From Alloiococcus otitis ATCC 51267 (lineage in GTDB: Bacteria > Bacillota > Bacilli > Lactobacillales > Carnobacteriaceae_A), in the NCBI RefSeq assembly GCF_000315445.1, contig NZ_JH992957.1, positions 381,675 to 445,674 on the forward strand: a stretch of DNA of 64,000 nucleotides, read 5' to 3'. Shown one piece after another: positions 5,292-58,600 of this stretch. The notes below the pieces were generated by a model, which was given only the letters and a program-made list of their open reading frames with translations, did no database searches and had not been told where the DNA came from. The translations under genes and the position numbers were made by a program. Within the stretch, counting starts at the first letter, position 1. Every line of letters begins with the position of its first letter.

Positions 5292-5418
5292 CATAAGTTC
5301 ATTAAGTTCATTGGTTTATATCAGTTAGCCATCAGATACTGATATAAGTAAATGAATATGGATGACTTAATAACGTATCATTTCGCTGTTGCATGACCGA
5401 AATGATACGTTTTTCTAT
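5292..5418 (+). ncRNA. Structured RNA upstream of trmL: small RNA or attenuated leader
   Basis: About 125 nt from the predicted start to a strong terminator. Visible helices: an outer stem ATTAAGT (5301-5307) with ACTTAAT (5365-5371), extended by TCATT/AATGA; an inner hairpin TATATCAG (5317-5324) with CTGATATA (5339-5346); and a perfect 14-bp terminator stem at 5372-5385/5398-5411 followed by a T-rich tract. I recognise no Rfam class. A 14-codon ORF (5352-5396) overlaps the terminator arm but has no ribosome site. The RNA either ends here as an sRNA or acts as an attenuator for trmL, 60 bp further on. Confidence 0.6.
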
Positions 5419-27501: not shown

Positions 27502-27712
27502 AATTCAATAAGCAAGTACGATGACAGAAGAAGTAGACTAATGAGCTTTCAAAGCGAGCCTGGATGAGTGGAAGCTAGGCAAAGCTTGTTATATCGAAAG
27601 GCCTCTCGAGTACTAATCAAGGGCTAGTAACGACTGTTGCTAGAAGTAGGGTGGAACCGCGAATAATCGTCCCTATACTGACTCCAAGAGTTGGTATAGG
27701 GGCTTTTTTATT
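27502..27712 (+). promoter_or_regulatory. T-box leader (glycine) of glyQS with terminator
   Basis: The T-box sequence AGGGTGGAACCGCG is at 27648-27661, followed by a terminator CCCTATAC (27671-27678) with GTATAGGG (27694-27701) and a T-run. Such leaders read uncharged tRNA; binding of tRNA-Gly would favour the antiterminator and glyQS expression. A GGC triplet at 27600-27602 is a plausible Gly specifier, but I could not fold stem I with certainty. Confidence 0.93.
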
Positions 27713-54545: not shown

Positions 54546-55100
54546 TTGGCACAAGATTACGATGAAAAGCAGTTGTTAGACCAGGTAGAGAAAGTAACCT
54601 ATGACTTGCTTGAAGAAGCAAAACTGGAAGCTGGCCAGGCCCTCGTTTTAGGCTTGAGTACCAGTGAAGTTGTCGGTGGGCAAATTGGGAAAAATTCCAA
54701 TGCTGAAATCGGTAAGGCAATTGTCTCCAAAATCAAATCCATCTTAGATGATAAGGGGATTTACCTGGCTACCCAGGGTTGTGAGCACATTAACCGGGCC
54801 TTAGTGGTGGACCGGGAATACGCTAAAAGCCACAATTTAGAAATTGTTAATGTCAAACCAGCCCTTCATGCGGGTGGATCAGGCACAGTTGCCGCCTATG
54901 ACCTCTTAGACGACCCGGTTATGGTGGAACACATCACAGCTGATGCTGGTTTGGACATTGGGGACACCTTTATTGGGATGCAGGTGAAATTTGTCCAGGT
55001 TCCTGTCCGTTTTGATATTGACCAAATTGGACAAGCCCATTTAACTGCCCTTCGGTCTCGACCTAAAAACATCGGTGGCGAACGGGCTGAGTATGAATAA
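54546..55100 (+). CDS. UPF0340 family protein (YwlG-like)
   Basis: About 184 residues, TIGR01440/UPF0340 family, function unknown. Family blocks are [56 protein letters not shown] and [22 protein letters not shown] 54546 has AGGAGTGTTTAGA upstream; a GTG at 54537 overlaps that site. No functional tie to neighbours is obvious. The trp leader promoter lies just after its stop. Confidence 0.88.
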
Positions 55101-55101
55101 G

Positions 55102-55130
55102 TTGACTTAATCGCTTGAGATAAGTAGTTT
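55102..55130 (+). promoter_or_regulatory. Promoter of the trpXYZ leader transcript
   Basis: TTGACT (55102-55107), 17-bp spacer, TAGTTT (55125-55130). Transcription would start near 55137 and give a ~270-nt leader. Confidence 0.68.
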
Positions 55131-55160
55131 AAAACTGATGAAAACTAGGGAGGTAGACCC

Positions 55161-55238
55161 ATGCAACAAGCGAATCAAATTTTAAATCCTGTTTCAGGTT
55201 TTTTGTGGCAAAATCGCATAGTAGCTGTGTCTGCTTAA
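55161..55238 (+). CDS. Leader peptide with a single Trp codon, upstream of trpXYZ
   Basis: A 25-codon ORF with an excellent ribosome site (AGGGAGG, seven bases before ATG). It begins MQQANQIL, ends WQNRIVAVSA, and its only Trp is codon 16 (55206-55208). The stop lies inside the loop side of RNA segment pairing 1:2 described next. Position, size and downstream terminators indicate a regulatory leader peptide and not a functional protein. The promoter is 31 bases before the ATG. Confidence 0.75.
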   Translation: MQQANQILNPVSGFLWQNRIVAVSA

Positions 55239-55372
55239 CTAAAATCAAGTAAGCCTAGATACAGCTGATCAACTCGATTGACCTGTATCTATGCGTTTAT
55301 AGAGCAAAAACCGCATAGATCGGATAAGTCTGTGCGGTTTTTCACAACCGTAGTCAACTACGGTTGTTTTTT
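55222..55372 (+). promoter_or_regulatory. Multi-state attenuator with two tandem terminators controlling trpXYZ
   Basis: Pairings read from sequence: 1:2 = 55222-55240 with 55248-55267 (~18 bp, bulges); 2:3 = 55256-55264 with 55283-55291, plus inner TCAA/TTGA; 3:4 = ATCTATGCG 55287-55295 with CGCATAGAT 55312-55320; 4:5 = terminator 1, AAAAACCGCA 55306-55315 with TGCGGTTTTT 55333-55342; 5:6 = 55333-55339 with 55346-55352; 6:7 = terminator 2, ACAACCGTAG 55344-55353 with CTACGGTTGT 55358-55367, then a T-run. States {1:2, 3:4, 5:6} and {2:3, 4:5, 6:7} are mutually exclusive. There is no room for a promoter between terminator 2 and trpX. Confidence 0.82.
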
Positions 55373-55406
55373 ATTTTAAACTAATTTTTAATTAGGAGGG
55401 AAAAGA

Positions 55407-56399
55407 TTGAAAAAATTACTTGCCACCATTGCGGTCCTCATTGCCATTGTTTCCTATTACACGGTTTCCTACCAGGATCCAGAACAAGGTCAGGCTAGCC
55501 TAGACCAAGAAGTGAGTGTTGGCATCCTACAATTGGTCAGCCACCCATCCCTGGATGAAATCCAACAAGGCATCCAAGATAGCTTTGAAGAAGATGGCAG
55601 CCAAGTCGAAATTGACCTGCAAAATGCCCAGGGGGACCAAAACAACCTTAATACCATGTCCCAACGATTTGTTTACCAAGAGGCAGATCTGATGATTGGA
55701 ATTGCCACCCCAGCTGTCCAGGCCTTGGCTAATGCAAGCTCAGATATTCCCATTATCATGGCTGGTGTCACCGATCCAATCGAAGCTGGCTTAATGAAAG
55801 ACTTAAATCAACCGGGTAGAAATATTAGTGGGGTGAGAGACCTAACCCCCTACCAGGACCAAATCGACCTTATCCAAACCATCCTACCAGACTTGTCAAG
55901 CTTGGGGATTATTTACTCCAGTGGTGAGGTTAATTCAGCCAAGCAAAGTCAAGCCGCAAAAGACTATGCCCAGTCCCTTGGTATGGAGGTCAAGGAAGCG
56001 ACTATTTCTTCGCCAAATGACCTCATCCAAGTAGCTGCCCAATTATGCCAGGAAGTGGAGGCTATCTGGGTGGGAACGGACAATAATATTGCTTCTGCCT
56101 TTCCCAGCCTGGTCGAAGTGGCTAACGACAACCAGGTTCCCATCTTCCCAGCAGTTTATGAAATGGTGGCAAGTGGGGGACTAGCAACCCGGGGACTGAG
56201 CCAGTATCAAATCGGACGGTTGAGCGGGCAAATGGCCTTGGAAGTTTTAGCTGGAGCAGACATTGCTAATCTTCCTGTCCAAGATCCTACAGAGACAGAA
56301 CTCGTGGTTAACCCTGACCAGGCCGATCGCTTAGGCTTGACCATCCCGTCTGAAATCCTAGAAGAAGCAGACATCCTAATAGAGGGAGGTCAAGAATGA
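55407..56399 (+). CDS. trpX: Tryptophan ABC transporter substrate-binding protein TrpX
   Basis: A 330-residue extracytoplasmic binding protein of the COG2984 family. An N-terminal hydrophobic segment (residues ~4-20) lacks a lipobox cysteine, so it is a signal peptide or membrane anchor. Matches to streptococcal TrpX include VGILQLVSHPSLDEIQQGIQ, ADLMIGIATPAVQALAN, PIIMAGVTDPIEAGL and EAIWVGTDNNIASAFPSLVE. The ATPase and permease genes overlap downstream. Tryptophan as substrate follows from the family and is supported by the Trp codon in the leader peptide. The start is TTG at 55407, following AGGAGGG. Confidence 0.9.
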   Translation: MKKLLATIAVLIAIVSYYTVSYQDPEQGQASLDQEVSVGILQLVSHPSLDEIQQGIQDSFEEDGSQVEIDLQNAQGDQNNLNTMSQRFVYQEADLMIGIATPAVQALANASSDIPIIMAGVTDPIEAGLMKDLNQPGRNISGVRDLTPYQDQIDLIQTILPDLSSLGIIYSSGEVNSAKQSQAAKDYAQSLGMEVKEATISSPNDLIQVAAQLCQEVEAIWVGTDNNIASAFPSLVEVANDNQVPIFPAVYEMVASGGLATRGLSQYQIGRLSGQMALEVLAGADIANLPVQDPTETELVVNPDQADRLGLTIPSEILEEADILIEGGQE

Positions 56400-57295
56400 A
56401 CTTAATCATTGTTTCCATAGCGGAAGGGTTATTATGGGCCGTCATGGCTATCGGGATTTTCCTTTCTTTCCGTATCCTACAAATAGCCGACTTGACCATT
56501 GAAGGAGCCTTTCCCTTAGGGGCAGCTGTTTCTGCTGCCATGATTGCAAGCGGGTTTAACCCACTCCTAGCTACCCTTATGGGATTTGTAGCTGGTATGC
56601 TGGCTGGTTTGGTGACTGGTCTTTTAATTAATAAGTTAAACATTCCAACCCTCCTAGCCGGTATCTTGACCATGACGGGCCTTTACTCCATAAACTTACG
56701 GATTATGGGCCAGGCCAATATCAGTTTACTCAACCAAGACCGGTTTACCCAAATCTTAGACAAGGTCTTTAACCTTCCTAGCCAAACCAACCTAATCCTC
56801 CTAGCCAGCTTGATTTTGACTGTCATTGTTGCTGGCTTACACCTCTTTTTTAAAACTGACCTCGGACAAGCCTTAATTGCTACAGGGGATAATGAGCGTA
56901 TGGCGGCTTCCATGGGGGTCAAGATCCAACAAATGAAAATTTTAGCCCTTATGTTGTCCAATGGCTTTGTGGCCTTGTCTGGGTCCTTAATTGCCCAAAA
57001 TAACGGTTACGCTGATATCAGCATGGGGATTGGGACCATTGTCATTGGACTGGCCTCCTTGATGCTGGCTGAAGTGATTTATGCCAATGTCTCGCTAGGG
57101 GTCCGGCTCACTTCCTTGGCCGTGGGGTCGATTATCTACCGGCTCCTCATTTCCCTGGCCCTATCCTTGGGGCTCCAGCCCAACGACTTAAAACTGGTCT
57201 CGGCAATCTTATTGGCACTTGTCATCGCCTTGCCACATTTTTTCAAGCATTACCAATCCAATTTAAAAGCCATGAAGGAGGGAGACAATGACTGA
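56396..57295 (+). CDS. trpY: Tryptophan ABC transporter permease TrpY
   Basis: A 299-residue membrane permease (COG4120, branched-chain amino acid-type fold) with about eight to nine hydrophobic segments. Family blocks: SFRILQIADLTIEGAFPLGA, NIPTLLAGILTMTGLYSINL and ATGDNERMAASMGVK, the cytoplasmic ATPase-contact loop. It overlaps trpX by four bases and trpZ by eight bases, so the three are translated as one unit. Confidence 0.9.
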   Translation: MNLIIVSIAEGLLWAVMAIGIFLSFRILQIADLTIEGAFPLGAAVSAAMIASGFNPLLATLMGFVAGMLAGLVTGLLINKLNIPTLLAGILTMTGLYSINLRIMGQANISLLNQDRFTQILDKVFNLPSQTNLILLASLILTVIVAGLHLFFKTDLGQALIATGDNERMAASMGVKIQQMKILALMLSNGFVALSGSLIAQNNGYADISMGIGTIVIGLASLMLAEVIYANVSLGVRLTSLAVGSIIYRLLISLALSLGLQPNDLKLVSAILLALVIALPHFFKHYQSNLKAMKEGDND

Positions 57296-58097
57296 GCGAT
57301 TACTCCACTTATCCAATATTAAAAAGACCTTTAACCCTGGTACCCTTGATGAAAAACAAGTCCTGAAAGGCTTAAACTTAACCATTCACAAGGGGGATTT
57401 CATCAGTGTCATTGGGGGCAATGGGGCAGGCAAGTCTACCTTACTCAATGTTATTTCGGGAGCTACTAAGCCTGATTCAGGCCAGATTCAAATGGAGGGA
57501 AAAGATATCACTCGGACGGGGGAGGTTAACCGGGCCAAAGACATTGCCCGGGTCTTTCAAAACCCAAGTTTGGGGACTGCCCCAAGGATGACTATCGCTG
57601 AAAACCTGGCTATTGCCATGAAGAGAGGGGAAAGACGGCTTTTCGGCCGGTCCTTAACCAGTACAAACAAGGCCTACTTTAAAAAACTCTTAGCCAGTCT
57701 GGACCTTGGCTTAGAAGACCGGCTGGATGACAGCTTAGACCTGCTGTCAGGCGGTCAGCGTCAGTCTATCTCCCTCTTGATGGCCACCATTAAAAAGCCT
57801 AAGCTCCTCCTCTTAGATGAGCATACCTCTGCTTTAGACCCTAAAGCTGCTGGTAAGGTGATGGCCCTGACAGACCAAGCCATTAAAGAAGACCAAATCA
57901 CCAGCCTTATGATCACCCACAATATGAGACAGGCAATTGATTACGGCAACCGGCTCATTATGCTCCACCAAGGACAAATTATCTTGGACATGAAAGGACA
58001 AGCCAAGGATGAACTAACAGTTGACAAGGTTTTGGACCTCTTCCAAAACCAGACCCTGGACCAAGAAGTGACCGATTCCCTTTTCTTGTCCGATTAA
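57288..58097 (+). CDS. trpZ: Tryptophan ABC transporter ATP-binding protein TrpZ
   Basis: A 269-residue ATPase subunit (COG1101). Walker [14 protein letters not shown]-loop VFQNPSLGTAPRMTIAEN, signature LLSGGQRQSISL, Walker B LLLLDEHTSALDP and H-loop MITHNMRQAI are present; the EH in place of EP after Walker B is common in this family. It is the third gene of trpXYZ. No clear terminator follows; the next gene has its own promoter. Confidence 0.92.
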   Translation: MTERLLHLSNIKKTFNPGTLDEKQVLKGLNLTIHKGDFISVIGGNGAGKSTLLNVISGATKPDSGQIQMEGKDITRTGEVNRAKDIARVFQNPSLGTAPRMTIAENLAIAMKRGERRLFGRSLTSTNKAYFKKLLASLDLGLEDRLDDSLDLLSGGQRQSISLLMATIKKPKLLLLDEHTSALDPKAAGKVMALTDQAIKEDQITSLMITHNMRQAIDYGNRLIMLHQGQIILDMKGQAKDELTVDKVLDLFQNQTLDQEVTDSLFLSD

Positions 58098-58102
58098 GAT
58101 TG

Positions 58103-58131
58103 TTTCAAAAGAGGGCTTTCTATGGTATATT
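58103..58131 (+). promoter_or_regulatory. Promoter of the orphan gene at 58160
   Basis: TTTCAA (58103-58108), 17-bp spacer, TATATT (58126-58131). Confidence 0.5.
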
Positions 58132-58159
58132 AGGCAAAAGCAAGGAAAGTTGGGTTAAG

Positions 58160-58600
58160 ATGTCAAATACTTACTATACAATTTACTGGATTAACAAGCG
58201 TGATGATGTCAGAAAAGAGCATGGGACCTACAAGAGTGAAGACGAGGCCAAGGAAGCCATCTTGACCTGGTGGGAAATTAACCAGGAAGATTATGACTAT
58301 GAAATTTACCGAACCAATACTGGGGCCCTAGAAGTCAAATACATCGATGACTATTCCTTCTACCGGATTGAAGCGGTACAAAGTGACCAAAAGCTGCCTT
58401 CCAAATCTTACAAACTCTACAAGCATGACCAAATCCTAGCCAAACGAAAGGCCCTTGATTTAGATGACAACCAATACCTCTTTGACCAATTAGCCGAACC
58501 TTACCGGGACCGGCTGATCATGGCCATGGCCAGTCCCAAAGTCGCCCGGAGCTTGGTTTACAACCAAGAAGGTCAACCCCTCTTCCAAATTGATGACTAA
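58160..58600 (+). CDS. Unrecognised soluble protein
   Basis: 146 residues, no signal peptide or membrane segment, rich in Tyr, Asp, Glu and Lys. The N-terminal half, YYTIYWINKRDDVRKEHGTY with SEDEAKEAILTWWEIN and YEIYRTNTGALEVKYID, looks like a small alpha/beta domain; the C-terminal half contains AKRKALDLDDNQYLFDQLAE. I do not recognise the family. ATG 58160 is preferred over an upstream in-frame start at 58100, which lies before the predicted promoter's -10 box. It has its own promoter and terminator. Confidence 0.6.
   Translation: MSNTYYTIYWINKRDDVRKEHGTYKSEDEAKEAILTWWEINQEDYDYEIYRTNTGALEVKYIDDYSFYRIEAVQSDQKLPSKSYKLYKHDQILAKRKALDLDDNQYLFDQLAEPYRDRLIMAMASPKVARSLVYNQEGQPLFQIDD

Follow-up and report, generated by a model that had tools for sequence, protein, structure and literature searches.

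What controls expression of the tryptophan transporter operon of Alloiococcus otitis? In the window, the whole stretch of 64,000 nucleotides of contig NZ_JH992957.1 that we analysed (coordinates refer to its forward strand), the operon begins with trpX (55407–56399), which encodes the substrate-binding protein of a tryptophan ABC transporter (NF041285 equivalog, 402.8 bits against a cut-off of 390), and continues with genes for a permease (trpY-like, 56396–57295, PF02653) and an ATPase (trpZ-like, 57288–58097, PF00005). Behind the ATPase gene lies a 166-aa ORF (58100–58600) with no Pfam or NCBIfam match. We found no trpB in the A. otitis genome, so tryptophan uptake is probably essential in this organism. 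A T-box (RF00230) model search of 55050–55450 gave no match at E values up to 10, and there are 20 T-box matches elsewhere in the genome. From its sequence and its relatives, the leader of the operon is very probably a ribosome-mediated transcription attenuator that would read charged tRNA-Trp through one TGG codon and thereby control trpXYZ.

The leader RNA would consist of eight segments, numbered 0 to 7. Upstream of them, a weak promoter-like sequence, TTGACT-17-TAGTTT (55102–55130), falls below the threshold of our consensus scan; loci L003 and L004 have better promoter matches in the same place. Segment 0 (55136–55167) spans the Shine–Dalgarno sequence AGGGAGGT (55147–55154), the start codon and the first codons of the leader ORF, and is the partner of segment 1 (55222–55240). 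The ORF (55161–55238), identified by translation and by homologous upstream ORFs (uORFs), encodes a 25-aa peptide, MQQANQILNPVSGFLWQNRIVAVSA*, with its presumed regulatory Trp codon TGG, conserved in homologous peptides, as codon 16 (55206–55208) and its stop codon at 55236–55238. Segments 2 (55249–55264) and 3 (55283–55300) are the left and right arms of a hairpin, P1, with segment 3 also serving as the antiterminator arm. Segments 4 (55306–55320) and 5 (55328–55342) are the arms of terminator 1, and segments 6 (55344–55353) and 7 (55358–55373, with the U-tract) those of terminator 2. Segment 7 was placed by duplex energy and all others by duplex energy and the swap tests described below, segments 2 and 3 additionally by alignment to the Rfam family RF04312. 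The 25-codon ORF, its strong ribosome site, its single TGG and its stop are all located where a preliminary description of this DNA had put them. The six pairings in its two exclusive sets, A (1:2, 3:4 and 5:6) and B (2:3, 4:5 and 6:7), are likewise each complementary.

These duplexes have computed energies of −21.4 (1:2), −16.2 (2:3), −16.4 (3:4), −21.7 (4:5), −8.6 (5:6) and −16.5 kcal/mol (6:7). A further pairing absent from that list, 0:1, reaches −19.7 kcal/mol. The region also folds better than its dinucleotide shuffles, both over 55137–55400 (z = −5.7) and over 55241–55380 (z = −8.6), with 0 of 200 shuffles as good in either case.

The proposed switch works as follows. When tryptophan is plentiful, the ribosome would reach the stop codon and cover segment 1; P1 (2:3) would then form, leaving terminators 4:5 and 6:7 to turn the operon off. 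When tryptophan is scarce, a ribosome waiting at the TGG would reach forward to just short of segment 1, which would pair with segment 2, leaving 3 free for 4 and 5 free for 6, such that both terminators would be blocked in a domino-like fashion and the operon would be on. If the leader went untranslated, 0:1 would form, then 2:3, and the operon would again be off, a state that we add to the earlier scheme. For living cells, we infer stalling, read-through, the tryptophan response and this untranslated-OFF state.

Several lines of evidence support this mechanism. First, the leader has many relatives. Positions 55252–55349 align end to end with RF04312 (the trpB ncRNA motif) at a relaxed threshold, with 29.3 bits and an E value of 0.034 in 401 bases, below the gathering cut-off of 59. 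Higher scores, of up to 66 bits, are seen at orthologous trpX loci from the same family (63–66 for L005–L007), and P1 and the terminator precede an amino-acid ABC transporter gene at the A. otitis locus, as is characteristic of RF04312. The A. otitis leader thus appears to be a divergent RF04312 copy, its homology resting on position and architecture and its score lying below the 59 bits of formal membership. Narunsky et al. (2024) presented RF04312 (SRC-39-1), with more than 900 members, as a strong riboswitch candidate; they speculated about an amino-acid-related ligand, did not name a uORF and left room for a classic attenuator (PMC11109978). They named Fusobacteria among its carriers (PMC11109978). 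The term ‘trpB motif’ occurs in no other paper of the literature searched. We found RF04312 in 213 of 398 genomes of the order of A. otitis. In a wide sample of the phylum, it was seen in only 4 of 399 genomes, two of these matches being apparently spurious, and a search of a plasmid collection gave no match. Ribosome-mediated attenuation had been called rarer in Bacillota by the preliminary description; this system corresponds to the widespread RF04312 and is not rare.

Second, the uORF belongs to the family. Among the 121 RF04312 loci from Lactobacillales that we read, 120 have a uORF with Trp codons, and 117 pass a strict filter for a Shine–Dalgarno-led short Trp-codon ORF that ends 5–30 nt before P1, a filter passed by 2.9% of dinucleotide shuffles of the same upstream regions. 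The four exceptions comprise two leaders with weaker Shine–Dalgarno sequences, one in frame behind AUU and one spurious RF04312 match. At L129 (genome G205), where the Trp leader stands in frame behind AUU rather than AUG, there may be a non-canonical start or a decayed copy. A TGG codon is present in all 112 distinct homologous leader peptides, which contain two (76 peptides), one (34) or three (2) Trp codons and follow the consensus ...QLNxSWQ(N/S)WRR* (ending WQ[NS]WRR*) or, in the one-Trp form, ...RWQSR*. The median distance from the first Trp codon to the start of segment 1 is 19 nt in one-Trp and two-Trp leaders alike. The same-family trpX homologue at L008 (G020) has no leader that we could see and a promoter-like stretch near its start, a possible loss.

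Third, the pairings are maintained between the segments of each locus. In a swap test, we asked whether true partners have better duplex energies than partners exchanged among all loci or within families, a procedure that removes shared ancestry incompletely. The true partners paired better for 0:1 (−16.3 versus −11.9 kcal/mol when swapped; about 110 loci), 1:2 (−15.6 versus −11.7), 2:3 (−14.6 versus −12.7) and 4:5 (−17.9 versus −10.8), with none of 2,000 swaps reaching the true mean. The same held for 3:4 (−11.7 versus −10.3; 0 of 2,000 overall), the weakest tested pairing within families, where 4 of 2,000 swaps reached it. For 5:6, the true mean of −7.99 compares with −6.00 for swaps overall and −6.64 within families (0 of 5,000 each), and covariation is apparent in examples such as TGCGGTT/AACCGTA in A. 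otitis and TGTGGTC/GACCACA in L052. The control pairings 1:4, 2:5, 0:2 and 2:4 had no cognate advantage. We also tried 1:3 as an extra alternative pairing and rejected it, as it lay weakly above swaps overall and not within families. Segment 0 surrounds the start codon, from −9 to +17 at the median. In 87 of 124 loci (about 70%), another terminator lies no more than 60 nt further on, so the tandem arrangement recurs in most relatives. The ORF, its Trp codon, the pairings and the associated genes are shown by sequence and comparison: conservation and covariation in homologous leaders, which the preliminary description had proposed to look for, are both found, and the pairings of its two sets hold up in the swaps from 1:2 through 5:6, with 6:7 compared in the Tyr/Phe set only.

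These comparisons bear directly on the published interpretation of RF04312, in which P1 would be the aptamer of a metabolite-binding riboswitch, binding an amino-acid-related ligand and controlling the terminator. Its standing as a strong candidate (PMC11109978) and the covariation of P1 and the terminator are what such a riboswitch would have. However, a uORF that the published text does not name precedes all but one of the loci read, segments 0 and 1 are coupled to the motif from outside it, the sensing codons vary with the downstream gene while P1 stays similar, and the motif's own authors left a classic attenuator possible (PMC11109978). We consider a riboswitch very unlikely.

A second alternative keeps the ribosome and reverses the signal: the nascent peptide would sense free tryptophan in the manner of TnaC and stall at high tryptophan. 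Sensing of this type exists (PMC8429421), the A. otitis leader has a single Trp codon, and the peptide conserves WQ and, upstream of it, LN. But the codons that immediately follow the first Trp form pairs with the 3′ flank of P1 (0 of 2,000 swaps; 2 of 2,000 within families), which explains their nucleotide-level conservation through RNA pairing; Tyr/Phe, His and Leu versions of the leader (below) put other residues on the same scaffold; and for uptake and synthesis genes, induction by tryptophan would make no sense. An arrest peptide is a highly improbable account of this leader. Least credible of all is that the region holds the ordinary terminator or terminators of the upstream DUF436 gene and a chance ORF, with trpXYZ expressed on its own and unregulated: the DUF436 ORF does end 61 bp ahead of the leader ORF, and intrinsic terminators do close the region, but uORF, spacing, pairings and gene context are conserved across genera, and a sigma-70-like scan of 54900–55500 passed no promoter and hence none between the terminators and trpX, including 55372–55407, where the preliminary description had said that a promoter would refute attenuation.

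Fourth, returning to the attenuator, folding predicts that the position of the ribosome selects the structure. Each leader was folded up to segment 4 from one of two starting points: for the stalled state, 11 nt downstream of where the last Trp codon begins; for the ribosome at the end of the ORF, directly behind the stop codon. Over 113 loci, the mean probabilities of 2:3 and 3:4 were 0.12 and 0.52 in the stalled state and 0.82 and 0.10 with the ribosome at the stop codon. The choice between set A and set B, as it had been proposed for stalled and terminating ribosomes, is predicted by folding in 95 of the 113 loci and the reverse in none. P1 is favoured in the fold of the untranslated RNA in 99 loci; at segment 4 complete, the fold of the untranslated A. 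otitis RNA is mixed and not clearly OFF. In the stalled state of the A. otitis leader, 3:4 has a probability of 0.86 before segment 5 is made, and 4:5 has an equilibrium probability of 0.93 once terminator 1 is complete. Because equilibrium prefers 4:5 even when the ribosome is stalled, read-through of terminator 1 must be kinetic and decided during transcription. For the A. otitis locus, this is where the predicted mechanism is weakest. The earlier idea that one stall resolves two terminators is well supported by the comparative evidence, with kinetics needed at terminator 1.

The same genomes contain paralogous transporters whose leaders encode peptides such as MLNQLNKTTQLNHFYFSYFRYCL*. These leaders match RF02863 (‘Enterococcus sRNA 2410’), just below or above its cut-off, a family described as an Enterococcus faecium sRNA (PMC5593968). 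It is present in 161 of 298 genomes of the order of A. otitis, the A. otitis genome included, where the leader at L187 (G000:C3:62630–62829, minus strand) encodes MNQQVLNLKTNFFFSYFRYSL* ahead of what is probably a second ABC transporter. An ORF ending in an aromatic cluster (...YFSYFR*) is found at 87 of the 90 RF02863 loci read, and 5:6 passes the swap test in this Tyr/Phe set (−11.6 versus −8.4). At 76 of 84 loci, no U-tract accompanies the middle hairpin, suggesting a relay to one terminator in the Tyr/Phe version. For 0:1, 183 of 2,000 swaps reach the true value overall and 5 of 2,000 within families; because the overall result is unclear, we propose the untranslated-OFF state for the Trp set only. 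By its sequence features, RF02863 looks like a Tyr/Phe attenuator leader rather than an sRNA, and the two transcripts seen on its Northern blot (PMC5593968) could be attenuated ends.

The genes downstream follow the codons. Trp leaders precede genes for a substrate-binding protein (TrpX) or TrpB, and Tyr/Phe leaders those for a substrate-binding protein, AroE (20) or PheA, the last two assigned by sequence motifs rather than model search; no cross-over between the two sets was seen. In a tree of 127 substrate-binding proteins, leader type changes once, between two clades separated by a branch with 100% SH-aLRT support, and the NCBI TrpX equivalog cut-off is passed by 5 of 5 proteins behind Trp leaders and 0 of 5 behind Tyr/Phe leaders. 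In the pneumococcal structure with bound tryptophan, a Gln bonds the indole nitrogen, and Tyr replaces this Gln in relatives that bind Tyr or Phe (PMC6816091). The corresponding column holds Gln in all 86 Trp-leader proteins, A. otitis TrpX among them, and Tyr or Phe in all 41 others; we picked this column as the only one with the matching Gln/Tyr pattern, because an exact correspondence to the published numbering could not be made. There was no clear relation between the pocket residue and Tyr- or Phe-specific leaders. Codons, transporter clade and pocket residue thus change together in matched leaders, which makes both the reprogramming rule and the two-terminator relay directly testable.

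Trp leaders stand ahead of trpX in Enterococcus, Vagococcus, Carnobacterium, Trichococcus, Aerococcus, Granulicatella, Gemella and many Lactobacillaceae, and T-boxes stand ahead of trpX in Streptococcus pneumoniae, S. mitis and S. oralis. The orthologous trpXYZ of S. suis shows T-box-mediated induction on tryptophan limitation (PMC9382623). The same trpX gene in neighbouring genera would therefore be served by two different sensors of charged tRNA. In the A. otitis window, an ordinary T-box match of 63.6 bits, below cut-off, lies at 27512–27677, 50 bp upstream of an ORF resembling the glycyl-tRNA synthetase alpha chain and followed by a beta-like one, both named by reading the sequences and not by model search; an ordinary 23S-methyl RNA motif (RF01065, 55 bits) is present at 5305–5416.

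Further codon versions occur in Clostridia. Sub-cut-off RF04312 matches are present in 41 of 196 genomes of one clostridial order, with up to four copies, and a few other genomes in the class also have matches. HHH uORFs precede genes for HisS/HisZ-like (histidyl-tRNA-synthetase-like) proteins in 15 of 15 cases, plus one with HYH; LLL-type runs (LLLL) precede one sodium symporter clade in 8 of 8; and uORFs with Phe/Tyr runs have another symporter clade, BrnQ-like carriers, or an ABC permease or binding protein downstream. The BrnQ-like (branched-chain amino acid) carriers behind Phe/Tyr leaders (L338, L350, L354 and L355) may transport aromatic amino acids. In the clostridial leaders, swaps support 1:2, 2:3 and 3:4, also when confined to code classes, and do not support the controls; in stall folding, the probability of 3:4 rises only slightly. 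His leader peptides were predicted earlier in several Firmicutes, without a link to the RF04312 scaffold (PMC2965389, PMC9413887), and some of our His loci may be the same ones.

The A. otitis leader very probably belongs to one widespread design, shared by RF04312 and RF02863 and recurring in many Gram-positive bacteria, in which the sensing codons (Trp, Tyr/Phe, His or Leu) fit the gene under control. With moderate confidence, we also favour a common origin for all of these versions. RF04312 and RF02863 would be one ancient, codon-programmable scaffold of Bacillota: its eight segments would form a relay, one ribosome position would decide one or two terminators, and only the sensing codons would have been exchanged, repeatedly, as the scaffold was copied before a new amino acid gene. 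Ribosome-read attenuation would account both for an orphan class with more than 900 RNAs and for an sRNA family, and searches for a ligand of the riboswitch-candidate class would be spared. Leader-peptide control by Trp and Tyr/Phe codons would be widespread in Lactobacillales, where T-boxes are the expected sensors, and the leader codons would point to the likely substrates of many transporters that are still uncharacterised.

Among known RNAs, RF04312 shares P1 and terminator 1 (segments 2 to 5), and either these ABC transporter genes or trpB lie downstream of it; as published, it has neither the uORF nor the second terminator, and the A. otitis leader scores below its cut-off. RF02863 has the same segment order, with a leader ORF (...YFSYFR*), a final terminator and a copy in the A. 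otitis genome, but differs in being filed as an sRNA, in the Tyr/Phe codons that it would sense and in its one terminator. In the trp and his attenuators of Escherichia coli, a ribosome translating a leader peptide stalls at cognate codons and thereby selects between alternative hairpins, and the untranslated RNA is OFF, all of which is likewise predicted for the A. otitis leader. We see no sequence relation to those attenuators and, unlike them, the A. otitis leader has eight segments, two serial tandem terminators and a single obligate Trp codon between segments 0 and 1. The kind of attenuator is thus known; the eight segments, the tandem terminators, the exchangeable codes and the link to a riboswitch-candidate class are new within the literature searched. 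The Listeria ilv attenuator Rli60 was also first predicted as a riboswitch or sRNA and later shown to be an attenuator (PMC5864092); like the Firmicutes His leader peptides, it is a case of ribosome-mediated attenuation in Bacillota, for other amino acids and genes and unlinked to RF04312. Finally, the Trp T-box of Streptococcus trpXYZ controls the same genes in response to the same signal, tRNA-Trp charging, but binds the tRNA directly (PMC9382623), whereas the A. otitis leader would read it through a ribosome.
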